The position numbers and the translations under genes are program-made. Below, in pieces: positions 15,266 through 42,776 of a stretch of DNA of 58,499 nucleotides (position 1 is its first letter; each line of letters begins with the position of its first letter). The DNA comes from a virus. Under the pieces are notes generated by a model. That model made no database searches. It had not been told where the DNA came from and saw nothing but the letters and a program-made list of their open reading frames with translations. Location: IMG/VR virus record IMGVR_UViG_3300022744_000032, positions 1 to 58,499 of that record. The stretch is one strand, 5' to 3'.

Positions 15266-17851
15266 TCAAGCACTCATGGCGGTTTTGCCGCCTTCAATTA
15301 CAAACAATTTGTCCCGCCAGGAGGCTTTCGCCTTCTGTGGGCGCTCGCGGTAGCCAACCATGTCCATGATCATCTGCCCCAACCAGGCCATGGCATCCAC
15401 CTGGTCATCGTTCGTGCCACCTGCCAGGAAGCGCAGCATCTCGTCCATCAACTCGTGGACCCACGGGGCTTTATCCGGGTGGGGGAGAAGGACACGTCCT
15501 TGTCGCATCAGTCCTTGTATGGGGCGCGCACGCGCTGCCTTGTCCTGCCTGCCCGGGGGCAACTGCAGGATGTGCATGTCGTACAGGCGTTTCTTGTCGA
15601 TGGATTTCTGCATGAACGGGCCGATGGATTTCTCGATCTGGCCAGCTTCGATACCAACGATGTCCATGATCGGCCGCCATTTCATGAAGGCGTCGCAGAT
15701 GTTTTCCATGGTTTCCATGGCATCGAACTTGCCCCGGACACGGTCGAGGATGTAGATGTCATCATGCTCGTCCACGCCTGCGGTCATGCCGACGGTGTAG
15801 TTCGACAAATCGTTCGTGGTGACGGCCAAGTCCCATGCCTGGTAGCCGATCAATTTACTGGTATCAACCACATCCGGGTCGTAGAACTTGAACATTTCAC
15901 GGGTAAAGTACATCCCGGTTTCAGGGGTCGGGTTCTGCTGGAACAGGGCCGACCATTTCCGTTCACCGAGCACTTTCCGTATCCGCGCGAGGGATTTCTC
16001 GTCATACCGGTCAGGGTGAAGTGCCTCGCCTTTCTTCCGGTTCGGCTCGTCCTGGGTGGCCAGGGCAGGAAACTCGATCAGCTGCCATTTGTCCCCGCCA
16101 TTTTTCTGCTCCGCCAGTAGACGGCCACCGAGGTCATCTTCATGCCAGCGGGTCATGATCAGGATCACGCCGCCGCCGGGGGCGAGACGCGTATAAGCGT
16201 CAGAGGTGTACCAGTCCCACGCCGCTTCGCGTTGTGTCGGGCTGTCTGCATCTTCCTGACTACGGACCGGGTCATCGATCATGAGGATGTGGGCACCACG
16301 GCCGGCGATACCGGAGCCGACACCTGCGGCAAAGTACGCGCCGCCCTGCGCGGTGAACCATTCTTCTGCGGCCTGTGAATCCGGGTCCAGACGCGTGTCG
16401 AAAATCTGGTGATAGTCACTGTCCCGAAGGAGTGCCCGATTACGACGGCTGAAGCCCATCGCCAGGCCCGTGGTGTGGGACGCAGCGATCACTTCATGTT
16501 GCGGGTACTTGCCCAGGTGCCAGGCAGGAAACCGGCGTGACGCGATCTCGGAATTGTGGGTAGGGATCAGTGTCTTCCCCGCCAGGTACAGCCCGTCTTC
16601 CGAATCAACCTGGATACACTTCCCCTGAAGCCCCTGTGGTGCATAGGTTATACCTATAATCCCGCGCATGCGCTGTTTTGCAAAACGCGTAATTTGCTTC
16701 CTCGGCAGGACAGTCGGTAAAGGGAGCGTCGGTTGAAAACCGATGTAGTAACAGGTTTTTTTACCTACGACCCCGGATGTCGATGTTGTTGGTGCCGCCG
16801 CGGATACATGCGGGGCGAAGCCCAGACCGGTCAGTACCTCCACAATGTCATCGACCAGGCGTTTGTTCGCAGCGACAATCCTTACCCGGCCCGTTTTCTT
16901 ACAAACGTGCCCGTCGGTATCGACGAGCCCTGCAATCAATGCGAGCCGCTGAATAACCGAGCCCAATTTATACTCAGTAGGGATGTGTTTATTCCCCGCT
17001 ACACCAAGCGCCTTTAACTCTACCCACATCCGGCCGCTGTTATTCGGCTTCGGCCCGGCAAAACTGGTAGTAACCACACCGGTGCCTTTGTGTATCTGCT
17101 GGCTTGATATCGGATACCCCAAGGCTTCAATGGCCCGCACGACTGCCTTATCGCCCGTGCAGTGGGTGATCGCAGGTTTCTTCGACGTACCATCACCGAG
17201 CCAGGCCCCAAGGACATACGGCGGCATAGTGAACTCTTGCGCGGGAAATTTCAGACTAGAAACTTGCTGGAGCTGGTACATACAGCGGCCGCCGGGCGTA
17301 AGATCGAGCTGCTTCCTATACTTCGTGGTGCGGGTGAAATACGCAGTTTCGGCGGTTATCCACTGCTGCGCCGAACGGTGGTATACCGTCCACTCGTGGT
17401 TTTCATGACAATGGATCACACTGCCGTCTGAAAACTCAACCCGCATGTTCGCAGGTGCTTTGGCCGATGTCGCCAGCACCTTCACCGGGTGCCCGTGGGG
17501 GTGGAATACCATGTCCCCCACTTCCAGATCCCCGTGGTTTTTCCACCCGGTTGTGGTCAACACGGGTGTGTTGTCGGCCAGAAGTTTCCCGTGGCGCGGA
17601 GGCACACAGATCATGAGCCGGGGGGATTTTTTATCGGCCACGTCCTGGGAAAACTGTTCCAGGACCTCGCAGATCTGCTTATGCACCCAGCCCGCCTGAT
17701 AATTCGGGTTAAACCGCTGCACGAACGGCAGCAAGTGGCGTCGACACAGTTCCCGTGAGGCGAGTTCGGCCATCGCCCCGCGTGCGGCCGCGTTCGGCAT
17801 CGCAGTCGGCAGGTCGAGGGAAAACTCTGTCTCTTCCGGGAACAGGTCCAC
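15266..17851 (-). CDS. terL: terminase large subunit with in-frame intein
   Basis: 861 codons from a GTG at 17851. Removing an intein of 344 residues (90-433) leaves a 517-residue TerL, a normal length. The exteins join as CVPPRHGK/SEIASRRFPAW, rebuilding the Walker A motif of the packaging ATPase. Downstream, 'HILMIDDPV' near residue 535 is the Walker B strand, 'LIMTRWHEDDLGG' near 580 the coupling motif, and 'YQAWDLAVT' near 680 starts the RNase-H-like nuclease domain with its first aspartate. It acts with the small subunit (19620-20111) and the portal. Without splicing the ATPase site would be split, so packaging depends on intein excision. Confidence 0.9.
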   Translation of the reverse strand: MDLFPEETEFSLDLPTAMPNAAARGAMAELASRELCRRHLLPFVQRFNPNYQAGWVHKQICEVLEQFSQDVADKKSPRLMICVPPRHGKLLADNTPVLTTTGWKNHGDLEVGDMVFHPHGHPVKVLATSAKAPANMRVEFSDGSVIHCHENHEWTVYHRSAQQWITAETAYFTRTTKYRKQLDLTPGGRCMYQLQQVSSLKFPAQEFTMPPYVLGAWLGDGTSKKPAITHCTGDKAVVRAIEALGYPISSQQIHKGTGVVTTSFAGPKPNNSGRMWVELKALGVAGNKHIPTEYKLGSVIQRLALIAGLVDTDGHVCKKTGRVRIVAANKRLVDDIVEVLTGLGFAPHVSAAAPTTSTSGVVGKKTCYYIGFQPTLPLPTVLPRKQITRFAKQRMRGIIGITYAPQGLQGKCIQVDSEDGLYLAGKTLIPTHNSEIASRRFPAWHLGKYPQHEVIAASHTTGLAMGFSRRNRALLRDSDYHQIFDTRLDPDSQAAEEWFTAQGGAYFAAGVGSGIAGRGAHILMIDDPVRSQEDADSPTQREAAWDWYTSDAYTRLAPGGGVILIMTRWHEDDLGGRLLAEQKNGGDKWQLIEFPALATQDEPNRKKGEALHPDRYDEKSLARIRKVLGERKWSALFQQNPTPETGMYFTREMFKFYDPDVVDTSKLIGYQAWDLAVTTNDLSNYTVGMTAGVDEHDDIYILDRVRGKFDAMETMENICDAFMKWRPIMDIVGIEAGQIEKSIGPFMQKSIDKKRLYDMHILQLPPGRQDKAARARPIQGLMRQGRVLLPHPDKAPWVHELMDEMLRFLAGGTNDDQVDAMAWLGQMIMDMVGYRERPQKAKASWRDKLFVIEGGKTAMSA
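16553..17584 (-). mobile_element. class 3 intein with LAGLIDADG homing endonuclease inside TerL
   Basis: Residues 90-433 of the TerL reading frame. The intein has no Cys or Ser at position 1 (it starts Leu-Leu-Ala-Asp). It carries the class 3 'WCT' set: Trp154 after NHE in block B, Cys412 in block F (GKCIQVDS) and Thr431 in block G. It ends His432-Asn433 followed by Ser434 as +1. Two LAGLIDADG helices, 'LGAWLGDGT' near 214 and 'LIAGLVDTDGH' near 305, indicate a homing endonuclease that appears intact. In class 3 inteins the block F Cys starts splicing. Insertion between Lys89 and Ser434 of the Walker A loop is a highly conserved target site. Confidence 0.9.
16642..16658. promoter_or_regulatory. 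operator-like palindrome inside the intein coding sequence
   Basis: CATAGGTTATACCTATA matches the recurring palindrome with one end mismatch, but lies in the intein reading frame (IGITYAPQ region). On the plus strand the right arm forms TATAAT. It may be a true antisense regulatory site or a chance match. Confidence 0.45.
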
Positions 17852-21074: not shown

Positions 21075-21106
21075 TTATGCAGGGTTGGCGGGGAATGCAA
21101 CTGGTG

Positions 21107-21312
21107 CATGTCCAGGAAGAGGGTCCATGTCCAAGAAGAGGGTCCATGTCCATGTCCATGTCCATGTCCATGTCCATGTCCATGTCCATGTCCAGGAAGA
21201 TGGCCCATGTCCAGGAAGATGGTCCATGTCCAGGAAGATGGTCCATGTCCAGGAAGATGGTCCATGTCCAGGAAGATGGTCCATGTCCAGGAAGATGGTC
21301 CATGTCCATGTC
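21107..21312. repeat. tandem repeat array (19-bp and 6-bp units) at the divergent junction
   Basis: Two 19-base units (CATGTCCAGGAAGAGGGTC type) are followed by seven CATGTC hexamers (21145-21186), six more 19-base units (21187-21300) and two hexamers. No unique spacers separate the units, so it is not a CRISPR array. The array lies between leftward late and rightward early transcription. It could be an iteron-type origin, a DNA-binding protein platform or a slippage-prone variable locus. Frames through it are low-complexity and I do not call them genes. Confidence 0.9.
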
Positions 21313-38190: not shown

Positions 38191-40119
38191 ATGGCGGTCA
38201 TCACGCTTGATTTCGAGACCTTCTTCCGAACTGGGTACTCCCTCAGTTCTCTATCTTACGAAGAATATATTTTCCACCCTGAATTTTACGTACACAGCGT
38301 CGGGGTCAAGATCAACGACGAAACTACCCGCTATTACGCTGACAATGAAGTCCGTCCTGCCCTGCGCGAACTGTTTTTCCCCGGAAATCCGCACACATTG
38401 ATCTGCCACAACCTGATGTTCGATGGCGCAATCCTGTCCTGGTATTACGGCCTGGCAGCAAAAACGTACTGGTGCACACAGTGCATGAGTCGCGGACTCT
38501 GGCCCCAGGAGCGTACCAGTCTCGAACAACTTGCCATACGTTTATGGCCCGATAATTTATCCATGCGTAAAGGCAAGGAACTGGAAAATTTCCGTGGTGT
38601 AAAACAGCTGACCCCTGAACAGCACATAACTATGGGAGATTACTGTATCCAGGACGTGGACCTGACCTTCGCTGCAGCACGTGTCCTGGTTCCACGTATT
38701 CCGGACACAGAACTGGAAGCAATCCACTTCACGCTGTCCCGATTTTTACATCCTGTTGTTCGCGTTGACCATGCACGCCTTGTGAAATTTCTCGATGAAC
38801 ACCGGACCGAGCAAGAACGCATCATTCTGGCGGCCGGAATCTCCCCGGACTACGAGACCTCTCGCGCTATTCTGGCGAGTAATCTGAAATTCGCCGCCTG
38901 GCTCGAAAAAACCCACGGATTGGTGATTCCGAAAGTATTATCCCCGACCGCCAAAAACCCGGATAACGAGAAATTACCGCTATCAAAAGCGGACAAAGAA
39001 TTCATTGAACTGCAACTCGACCATCCTGAACTGAAACATGTCTGGATCGCCCGCATGATGGCGACCAGTAACATCGCCGAAACCCGCGCGATGCGATTGA
39101 TCGGGCACTCGTCTGTGTTTCCGAATCACCAGCTGGCCATCCCGAAACAATACTACGGGGCACACACAGGTCGCTGGTCTGGCTGCAACAAGATCAACAT
39201 GGAAAACCTCCAAGCAGGGTCACAACACCGCCTGGCGCTTATAGCACCGCCTGGCTACCGGATCGGCGTCGTGGATCTGGCCAATATCGAAGGCCGCGTT
39301 ATGGCGTGGTTCGCACAGCAACTGGACGTGTGTCAGGCATTCGCCGATAACGTCGACCTTTACGACCGGATGGCCACCGCGGTGTATGGATATGAAGTTC
39401 GCCGTAATCACGAAGTTATCGATCATGAAACCGGTAAAAAAATCAAGCCACATGCAAAAGAAGGGTTTGTTGGCAAGACGATGATCCTCGGCCTCGGCTA
39501 CGGCATGGGCGCGAAAAAGCTCCGCCACACCTTTCTTGTTGGCGGCCGCGGAGGAGAACACATGTTCTTTTCCCTCGCGGAGTGTGAACACTTTGTCCGT
39601 GTATATCGCAACGCAAATGATCGATTCGCGGCTTGCTGGGCATACGCCCAGAAAATGCTGTACCACATGACCTCCAAAGGCGAAGACCCAATCGTATGGC
39701 GCTGCCTTAAAGTCGGGTATCGATGGATAAAACTCCCCAACAATATGTACCTGAGTTATCCGAAACTGGAACGCGTGGAAGATGATCGTGGCAACATCCA
39801 GTACCAATACTGGAACGGTAAACACATGACCAGTATTCACGGCGCGAAATTGATCGAAAACATTATCCAGGCACTCAGCCGGATTATTCTGAATGACGCA
39901 CGTCGTGCTGTCACAGAACACCTTGCGCAGTACAACGATCCAAACCAGTGCGTACTGATGACCGTACACGATGAAATCGTTGCAATTCTTTCTGAAGAAA
40001 CAGTAGAAACAGACATGGACTTCATCCATGCCGCCATGAAACAAACACCAACATGGGCGGCGGATGGGCTGCTCGTATTAAACACAGCCGGGGGGCACGA
40101 TGTCTGCTACAGCAAATGA
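38191..40119 (+). CDS. DNA polymerase, family A (T7/Pol I type)
   Basis: 642 residues. The 3'-5' exonuclease domain is shown by Asp7/Glu9 (LDFET), 'CHNLMFDG' near 72 and 'YCIQDVDLTF' near 151 (Exo III). The polymerase has motif A 'VDLANIEGR' (Asp362), motif B 'KTMILGLGYGMG' (Lys429-Gly440) and motif C 'TVHDEIV' near 597. No 5'-3' exonuclease domain, as in T7 polymerase. ACAGGAGCCCGCGC precedes ATG 38191. The CsrA-like gene starts inside its last codons. This is the replicative polymerase of the phage. Confidence 0.95.
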   Translation: MAVITLDFETFFRTGYSLSSLSYEEYIFHPEFYVHSVGVKINDETTRYYADNEVRPALRELFFPGNPHTLICHNLMFDGAILSWYYGLAAKTYWCTQCMSRGLWPQERTSLEQLAIRLWPDNLSMRKGKELENFRGVKQLTPEQHITMGDYCIQDVDLTFAAARVLVPRIPDTELEAIHFTLSRFLHPVVRVDHARLVKFLDEHRTEQERIILAAGISPDYETSRAILASNLKFAAWLEKTHGLVIPKVLSPTAKNPDNEKLPLSKADKEFIELQLDHPELKHVWIARMMATSNIAETRAMRLIGHSSVFPNHQLAIPKQYYGAHTGRWSGCNKINMENLQAGSQHRLALIAPPGYRIGVVDLANIEGRVMAWFAQQLDVCQAFADNVDLYDRMATAVYGYEVRRNHEVIDHETGKKIKPHAKEGFVGKTMILGLGYGMGAKKLRHTFLVGGRGGEHMFFSLAECEHFVRVYRNANDRFAACWAYAQKMLYHMTSKGEDPIVWRCLKVGYRWIKLPNNMYLSYPKLERVEDDRGNIQYQYWNGKHMTSIHGAKLIENIIQALSRIILNDARRAVTEHLAQYNDPNQCVLMTVHDEIVAILSEETVETDMDFIHAAMKQTPTWAADGLLVLNTAGGHDVCYSK

Positions 40120-40324
40120 TGTAAAACACCTTTTTATCCACCGCGGGGAAAACCAGTCGATGTTGATCAAAGTCGCCGACGTAGAATTCACAATCGGTGT
40201 ATCCAGCTTCAATATCAACCGGCGTAATGTTACGTTAAGCATCCGTGCGCCGAAATCTGTCAGTGTAACCCGCACTGAAACGCTCCTTTCTAACCAGGCA
40301 AACGGTGGAGCCCATGGCGAATGA
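40100..40324 (+). CDS. CsrA/RsmA-like RNA-binding protein
   Basis: 74 residues. The alignment to CsrA is convincing by eye: 'LFIHRGENQSMLI' replaces the first CsrA strand (LILTRRVGETLMI), and 'NVTLSIRAPKSVSVTRTE' matches 'QVRIGVNAPKEVSVHREE', with Arg58 at the position of the RNA-contacting Arg44. CsrA dimers bind GGA in leader hairpins and block or stabilise mRNAs. A phage copy could rewire host carbon, biofilm and virulence mRNAs or control phage leaders, many of which carry AGGA next to a hairpin. It sits between polymerase and primase genes, overlapping both. Confidence 0.75.
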   Translation: MSATANDVKHLFIHRGENQSMLIKVADVEFTIGVSSFNINRRNVTLSIRAPKSVSVTRTETLLSNQANGGAHGE

Positions 40325-42776
40325 AATCCTCACGACATTTTTATCCGCAGCAAAACCCATTCGTAAAGCATTCACCCCAGACGGTGTTACCCCCTACCCT
40401 CTGGTAAAAAGTTTTACATCGCACCGCATAACATACCCGGCCACCCTTGCCGGCATGAAAGCACGCTTGAAAGACCAGCAACGCCATGCGGTACACGGAA
40501 ATTGTTTACTTCGGGGTAATACAACACGCGATTTGAAAAACGAATCCCGTAGCGGACAAGTAGACCCTCTGGCGTTGAACAATACCCTGGTCCTGGATAT
40601 TGATGCAATCCGGATTCCTCGCGGGGATGTATTATCCATCCGGGAAATGCACCGTCTGGCGCGAAAAATAATCCGGATGCTTCCTGCTTTTTTCCATGAC
40701 ACATCCTGTATCTGTAGCGCGTCATCCAGCATGGGCATGAAGCCGGGGCAAGTCAGTATGCACCTGGAATTCTGGTTGAGTACCGCGAAAGATCCTCGCT
40801 GGCATAAAGACTTACTACGCTGGTTGAACCTGGAAATTCCGCTATTCGATGAACAACTCGAATTGTCTGCTACAGGAACAACTTTCCGCTGGAAACTGGA
40901 CGCAGCCATGTCCAGCAACGCACAAATCCGATACATCGCCGTGCCTGAATTCCTTGGCGGAGTAGAAAATCCGCTCCCTGATATTCATGCACGCCATTTT
41001 TTGGTGATCGGAAAAAATTGCCTGATCGATCCATCCAAAATCGACCTACCAAAAAATGTAGACCAGCTGGTCACTCGCCGGGTAAATGCTGCCCGTGCGA
41101 CCGCAGGACTGCCAAGCAAAAAAGAGAACCTGGCGATGATCGGTCGCGAAGGCTCCCGTATTGCCGTTGTCACAAACCCTGATCACCTGGAAATGACCTA
41201 CGTACGTGACACAGATACATTCGTGTATTACAACGTCAACGGCGGTGATTCAAACGCGTACTACGTAAAAAAATATGAGCCGTATATTGTCCACAACTTC
41301 AAGGGCGAGCCTCCGTTTATTTTTGAAGCGGCAAGTCCGGAAACATACCGCCAGCATCTCGAACGCTGGGTTTTTTCGGAGGACCCCGAAGGAAAAAAGC
41401 CCGTACTTCCACCCGTGCCCATCGTGTTCAGGGAACCAGCAACGGACACCTATTTCAATGGCTTCATCGAACCTGGTACGGGGAAAGCCGTTGATTTGTA
41501 TTCTGTCCGCTCGACAAAGGCAATGGAAGATTTCATGGCGCAAAATGGTGGCACGATTCCAGACCCGATTCCTGAAATAAAACTGATTTTTGCACCACAA
41601 GAAAATTTCCGGTATGACGTAACCCAACGCCGGTTAAATACTTATTACCCACCAGATCTGGACCTTCAAATCCTTGAACGATTTTCCTGGCGTAATAGTC
41701 CGCAACATATGATGTATCACTGTCCTGCGACAACACTCCTGATCACACACGTGCTCGGGGGGGATACAGCAGCAGCCATGCACTTTTTTAACTGGCTCGC
41801 TATTGCATACCAGTTAAAAATAAAACACTCGACATGCTGGGTATGGCAAGGATGTCAAGGTACTGGCAAAGGTATCTTGTTTTCGCATGTACTGGCCCCT
41901 CTGTTCGGCCAGCAATTTTGCAAAAGTTCCACCATTGAAGTGCTAGAGGAACAATACAACGGATTCCTGGAAGATGCCCTACTGGTTATGTTTGATGAAT
42001 TCCGGCTGGATACATCGAAGCAAGCGGATAAATTGTACAACCGTGTCAAGAACCTGATCAGTGAAAAAGTGTTAGCCATACGACACATGTACCGCGGGGT
42101 TGCTCACCGGAATGTGTATTTCAACTGCATTTTCGCCTCGAATGACCGCGACGTGATCCGTGTACCACGCGATGATCGGCGCATGAATGTTGGGTCCCGC
42201 CAGGAAGTTCCACTTCGGAATGTCGTGGATGTCCCAACGCTGTTGATCGATTTAGGGCATGAAGTATCCAAGTTTGCTAGTGCGTTAATGGCCATGGACA
42301 CTGACCAGAGTATTGCTGCAGTTCCCTTCATAAATAACGCCCGCGCAGAATTACAAGAACTGTCCGAATCAACAATCGATGGATTTTGTATCGCAATAGA
42401 AAATGGTGATCTGGATTATTTCCTCCAGGTCCTGCTTCGTGACCAGGGCAGTATCCAGGATAATATCCTGGGAGCGGCCCGTACTGTCATGCGCGACTGG
42501 CTCCGACGTATCAGTTTTACTGCAACCGACGAACAAGAACAATTTTTCTGCACTATCGAAGAGTTACGTATCCTGTATAGTGCTATCTTAAAACCAGAAA
42601 ATAGTACGGTAAAATTTGGCCGGATTATGTCACTCCATGGAATAAAAAGCTTCCTCCGTAAACACAAAGGTGTGACAGAACGGGGACAATATATTACTTG
42701 GCAAGACCTCGACGCTACTCGGCTACAAGAACTACGTAACCGGTTCATGCCGGAAACTCTTCGCTCCGTATCATAG
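40314..42776 (+). CDS. primase-helicase
   Basis: 820 residues from ATG 40314 (GGTGGAGCCC leader; an outer GTG at 40305 is less likely). The N-terminal half contains 'NTLVLDIDAIRIP' near 85, a primase-polymerase type acidic strand. The C-terminal half is an SF3-like helicase: Walker A 'GCQGTGKG' (513-520), Walker B 'VMFDEFR' near 560, a sensor segment 'IFASNDRDVIRVPRDDRR' near 600-620. A hypervariable DNA-binding tail follows. This pairing is typical of phage replication proteins that make primers and unwind DNA for the polymerase encoded just upstream. Confidence 0.8.
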   Translation: MANEILTTFLSAAKPIRKAFTPDGVTPYPLVKSFTSHRITYPATLAGMKARLKDQQRHAVHGNCLLRGNTTRDLKNESRSGQVDPLALNNTLVLDIDAIRIPRGDVLSIREMHRLARKIIRMLPAFFHDTSCICSASSSMGMKPGQVSMHLEFWLSTAKDPRWHKDLLRWLNLEIPLFDEQLELSATGTTFRWKLDAAMSSNAQIRYIAVPEFLGGVENPLPDIHARHFLVIGKNCLIDPSKIDLPKNVDQLVTRRVNAARATAGLPSKKENLAMIGREGSRIAVVTNPDHLEMTYVRDTDTFVYYNVNGGDSNAYYVKKYEPYIVHNFKGEPPFIFEAASPETYRQHLERWVFSEDPEGKKPVLPPVPIVFREPATDTYFNGFIEPGTGKAVDLYSVRSTKAMEDFMAQNGGTIPDPIPEIKLIFAPQENFRYDVTQRRLNTYYPPDLDLQILERFSWRNSPQHMMYHCPATTLLITHVLGGDTAAAMHFFNWLAIAYQLKIKHSTCWVWQGCQGTGKGILFSHVLAPLFGQQFCKSSTIEVLEEQYNGFLEDALLVMFDEFRLDTSKQADKLYNRVKNLISEKVLAIRHMYRGVAHRNVYFNCIFASNDRDVIRVPRDDRRMNVGSRQEVPLRNVVDVPTLLIDLGHEVSKFASALMAMDTDQSIAAVPFINNARAELQELSESTIDGFCIAIENGDLDYFLQVLLRDQGSIQDNILGAARTVMRDWLRRISFTATDEQEQFFCTIEELRILYSAILKPENSTVKFGRIMSLHGIKSFLRKHKGVTERGQYITWQDLDATRLQELRNRFMPETLRSVS

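Follow-up and report, generated by a model that had tools for sequence, protein, structure and literature searches.

The window (the whole stretch of DNA that we analysed) is a viral sequence record, 58,499 bases long. Its minus strand carries a terL reading frame of 861 codons that includes an in-frame insert of 344 residues with no stop codons. On either side of the insert, the exteins keep both terminase domains (Pfam Terminase_6N, E 4.6e-13, and Terminase_6C, E 9.9e-08), so the protein has the Walker A ATPase and the RNase H-like nuclease domain of a terminase large subunit, and the reading frame matches phrog_38 (E 2.8e-108). The gene adjoining terL encodes a P22-like portal that is nearest to the portal of the Pseudomonas KPP25 group. 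The features of the gene are:

15266-17851, minus strand: terL, terminase large subunit precursor (861 codons, listed GTG start, Terminase_6N and Terminase_6C)
17585-17851, minus strand: N-extein, with the Walker A residues PPRHGK at its end (17585-17602)
16553-17584, minus strand: predicted class 3 intein of 344 amino acids, from its residues, its alignment with relatives and its PDB matches
17582-17584, minus strand: intein position 1, Leu, not a nucleophile (Cys or Ser in class 1)
17390-17398, minus strand: block B, His63-Glu64-Trp65, in which Trp65 is the W of the WCT triad (B:12)
17183-17221, minus strand: first LAGLIDADG motif (block C), PYVLGAWLGDGTS, with D131
16754-17242, minus strand: homing endonuclease domain, with approximate limits taken from the match to PI-SceI
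16907-16939, minus strand: second LAGLIDADG motif (block E), LIAGLVDTDGH, with D222 and D224
16616-16618, minus strand: block F, Cys323 (F:4), the predicted class 3 nucleophile
16553-16561, minus strand: block G, Thr342-His343-Asn344, in which Thr342 is the T of WCT (G:5) and Asn344 the cyclising residue
15266-16552, minus strand: C-extein, which starts with Ser at +1 (16550-16552)

Elsewhere in the window, a 19-base unit (TGGTCCATGTCCAGGAAGA) that has a 6-base sub-repeat is repeated about 10.7 times at 21102-21308, close to the upstream edge of the block of structural genes on the minus strand. On the plus strand, a family A DNA polymerase with a match to a 3'-5' exonuclease (38191-40119) is followed by a DUF5906/VapE-like reading frame (40305-42776).

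The insert occupies codons 90-433 of the reading frame and is flanked by RLMICVPPRHGK on the N side and SEIASRRF on the C side, so that the Walker A loop is split as PPRHGK//SE. It starts with Leu and so lacks a Cys, Ser or Thr nucleophile at position 1, and it has a complete WCT triad: W154, C412 and T431 of the reading frame are Trp65, Cys323 and Thr342 of the intein. It ends in THN/S, with Asn344 (N433 of the reading frame) followed by Ser at +1. This serine is the serine of the Walker A loop and is also predicted to be the nucleophile of the second branch point. The initial annotation had placed the intein at 16553-17584, with a missing nucleophile at position 1 and a Trp154-Cys412-Thr431 triad, and the translated reading frame agrees with it exactly.

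Class 3 inteins are defined by the absence of an N-terminal nucleophile together with Trp at B:12, Cys at F:4 and Thr at G:5, and the first branch point forms at Cys F:4 (PMC3196547, PMC7664689). The window intein has each of these features, and the sequences of known structure point the same way. In a phmmer search of the PDB, the top three sequences were class 3 DnaB1 inteins (6bs8/6own, 6rix and 6riy), which align over blocks A-B and F-G, through W65 and C323 to THN. With a profile built from 57 relatives, the class 3 DnaB1 inteins of solved structure were matched at both ends of the intein (E 3e-25 to 3e-24) and PI-SceI was matched in the middle, endonuclease part (E about 2e-21), so chance cannot account for the resemblance. 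We also aligned 14 inteins, some taken from viral contigs and the others from phages that infect Gordonia, Porphyromonas, Bacteroides, Escherichia, Brevibacterium, Rhodobacter, Mycobacterium and Clavibacter, so that the alignment spans phages of Actinobacteria, Bacteroidota and Pseudomonadota. W65, C323, T342, H343, N344, D131, D222 and D224 are invariant in all 14, whereas position 1 varies (L, Q, E, A, R or D).

The endonuclease domain scores above the cut-offs for Pfam LAGLIDADG_3 and Hom_end. Motif C is PYVLGAWLGDGTS, with D131, and motif E is LIAGLVDTDGHV, with D222 and D224. Because these three residues are kept as in the aligned relatives, we consider both motifs to be intact. Both also align with PI-SceI, which bears out the earlier claim of two complete LAGLIDADG motifs. 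From these sequence features, we are confident that a class 3 cis-splicing intein interrupts the Walker A codons of terL and that its LAGLIDADG homing endonuclease is intact.

Several described inteins resemble it. The mycobacterial DnaB1 class 3 inteins (6bs8, 6own, 6rix) have splicing blocks and a WCT triad that align directly with those of the window, but those with a solved structure are 139-146 residues long, mini-inteins that have no endonuclease and interrupt a helicase. Conversely, PI-SceI (the VMA intein) has a LAGLIDADG endonuclease domain as in the window, but its splicing domain is class 1. Among terminases, the TerL inteins of the Gordonia phages Verity and APunk and their relatives share the GK/S site, the WCT triad and two LAGLIDADG motifs, and are 41% identical to the window intein over its full length, although their TerLs belong to another branch of terminases (exteins about 27-28% identical). 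The TerL inteins of Bacteroides phage B124-14 and Porphyromonas phage005b also have WCT (38-40% identity) and lie in PPQxGK/SEG, but these phages infect another phylum and position 1 is Glu or Gln. In mycobacteriophages, both TerL1-a and TerL1-b are inserted in Walker A (PMC5050341). In TerL1-a the insertion comes directly after the invariant Lys, as in the window, but the +1 residue is Thr (PMC5050341); TerL1-b lies one residue downstream of the window site and is 33% identical. In our 14-intein alignment, Baka TerL1-b shows the class 3 signature, like the window intein, and it has been proven both to splice and to cut (PMC5050341).

To describe the family more broadly, we compared 268 inteins after dropping identical copies; 106 of them have an identity of at least 36% with the window intein. 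All 106 relatives are inserted between GK and S or T, so the split of PPRHGK/SE that had been noted in the Walker A loop of TerL is seen at the same point in relatives. The Trp, the Thr and the C-terminal Asn are present in 106 of 106, HN in 105, and both LAGLIDADG Asp in 104. In two trees, the Walker A TerL inteins form a clade apart from DnaB and other class 3 inteins (SH-aLRT 97 and 100); both trees contain only WCT-type inteins, and the order inside the TerL clade is poorly resolved.

The distribution of the intein is sporadic. By extein, the closest described TerLs are from Aeromonas phage phiA008 (48.5% identity) and Pseudomonas phage KPP25 (42%); both are intein-free, with an uninterrupted site. 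The DNA at the empty site is nearly the same, reading ...CGGCACGGGAAA/TCCGAG... in KPP25 and ...CGCCACGGGAAA/TCCGAG... in the window. The TerLs of the Gordonia, Bacteroides and Porphyromonas phages have the GK/S junction in common with the window. The nearest exteins are intein-free while these phages have the intein, a pattern that a homing element would be expected to leave. The relatives L025, L022 and L185 have inteins that are 41-43% identical to the window's, yet their exteins have no BLAST match to the window extein. In five pairs of relatives, dN is well below that of the extein in the intein, and for L020 and L181 it is 0.12 in the intein versus 0.61 in the C-extein. The sporadic distribution and the mismatch between intein and extein divergence fit homing or lateral transfer, as predicted, but the exteins may simply evolve faster than the inteins, and such a slower intein clock would weaken the argument for transfer.

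We infer that the window intein splices, cuts and homes, as follows, with splicing by the class 3 route described in the literature. Once the precursor has folded, Cys323 would attack the Lys-Leu bond at the N junction and form the first branched thioester. The acyl group would pass to Ser at +1, giving the second branched ester; cyclisation of Asn344 would release the intein; and an acyl shift would restore PPRHGKSE, the ATP-binding loop. Once released, the intein would cleave terL genes that lack it, at the conserved codons of the P-loop, and would be copied into them during repair. Because the insert separates the Lys and the Ser of Walker A, the unspliced precursor should not bind ATP. The initial annotation had argued that packaging needs splicing, which is sound reasoning: intein-free TerLs read an uninterrupted PPRxGKS, and a study of TerL inteins likewise concluded that packaging needs splicing (PMC5050341).

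On its residues, we rejected a class 1 or class 2 intein. An intein of either class that merely resembles class 3 would be very improbable: position 1 is very variable in the family, and direct attack by the Ser at +1 is conceivable in principle, but position 1 has neither Cys nor Ser, the WCT triad is complete, and the nearest relatives of solved structure are class 3. We give equally little credence to a pseudogene that blocks TerL while another gene supplies packaging. Arth_1007 is an example of a class 3 intein that is dead (PMC3196547), but it lacks Cys F:4, whereas the window intein keeps every catalytic residue and its whole frame, and the extein retains both terminase domains.

An unlikely reading, although less so than these two, is that the window intein splices but that its endonuclease is dead or finds no empty sites, so that the intein is fixed and inherited only vertically. 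The nearest intein-free phages are only distantly related, so we see no recent homing of the window intein. On the other side, both LAGLIDADG motifs and the NKHIP region are intact, nearly all of the 106 relatives keep both Asp, and the divergence of inteins disagrees with that of exteins. We therefore favor an intein that would splice and whose endonuclease would be active.

Such inteins are not rare, contrary to what had been claimed: a 2020 survey catalogued 1701 class 3 inteins, 82.5% of them with LAGLIDADG motifs (PMC7891396), and we found hundreds in phages, contigs and genomes. The protein sequence of the window intein was matched in 716 of 50,697 phage records, and 501 of these matches cover at least 80% of its length. 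In the genomes of 84,980 bacterial and archaeal species, 549 of 552 pattern matches encode a relative, and in viral contigs at least 583 pattern matches do (583 of 600 among the matches listed). In mycobacteriophages, no other protein hosts inteins as often as TerL, which has the Walker A sites TerL1-a and TerL1-b; five phage TerL-type inteins, including Baka TerL1-b, have been proven to splice, and two, again including Baka TerL1-b, to cut (PMC5050341). Since inteins in the TerL P-loop and class 3 TerL inteins have been published, and given the size of the 2020 catalogue, the class, the host protein and the insertion site are all known already.

In six relatives, all of them class 3-like, Cys F:4 is replaced by Ser:

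L019, 3995-5029: TerL intein with Ser at F:4
L020, 1157-2164: TerL intein with Ser at F:4
L024, 3998-5002: TerL intein with Ser at F:4
L181, 224-1231: TerL intein with Ser at F:4
L182, 3998-4987: TerL intein with Ser at F:4
L266, 1363-2367: TerL intein with Ser at F:4, the position being one residue nearer the end

A scan of viral sequences with an alignment of these Ser-F:4 inteins found no further cases. Their frames are open across both exteins, and terminase domains were found in L019, L024 and L182. The L024 intein occurs unaltered in three contigs from differently numbered metagenome data sets, so a sequencing error is unlikely there. Between L020 and L181, dN in the intein is far below dS (0.12 versus 0.85), which implies purifying selection. 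All six have Thr at +1; among the members of this clade that have Cys, 7 of 100 do (Fisher 1e-6, which ignores kinship and so is not a probability of independent association).

Parsimony gives three changes at F:4, and a single clade of all six was rejected (p-AU 1e-62). Firm support extends only to L266 standing apart from the other five, as a grouping of L019 with the group of four was not rejected (p-AU 0.078). Judging from these trees, the Ser-F:4 inteins are of more than one origin. We propose tentatively, and with slightly more doubt than belief, that the Walker A TerL intein clade swapped Cys F:4 for Ser more than once, always with Thr at +1, which would give splicing through oxygen esters throughout: a form of class 3 based on serine, which searches that require Cys rule out by definition. 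Position 1 is Ser in L020 and in L266, so a switch to the class 1 pathway is a possible alternative for these two.

The TerL of L020 has a second intein-like insert after VIVM, downstream of 2165 in the C-extein reading frame. It starts with Cys (CLTGDTPILMSDGS...), its LAGLIDADG_3 match is slightly under the cut-off, and L181 reads VIVMTRWH at the same place. This second insert is apparently a class 1 intein, so that one TerL would hold two inteins of different kinds.

In the laboratory, a catalytic cysteine could generally not be replaced by serine (PMC5222942). The 2020 catalogue demanded Cys at F:4, so the Ser-F:4 forms could not be in it (PMC7891396). According to the survey of mycobacteriophages, Cys is the initiating nucleophile in all of the inteins that it covers. 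Class 3 and its phage origin were first defined in papers that reportedly include Tori and Perler 2011, and such founding papers may already mention serine forms.

The window intein itself is one more member of class 3, at a Walker A site in TerL that is common to inteins across the phages of several phyla. Since it keeps Cys, it is a natural comparison for the Ser-F:4 inteins. If those inteins splice, then the cysteine-based definition of class 3 is too narrow, and a thiol-free class 3 chemistry would be on offer. It would then also become testable how an intein swaps its catalytic nucleophile without dying.
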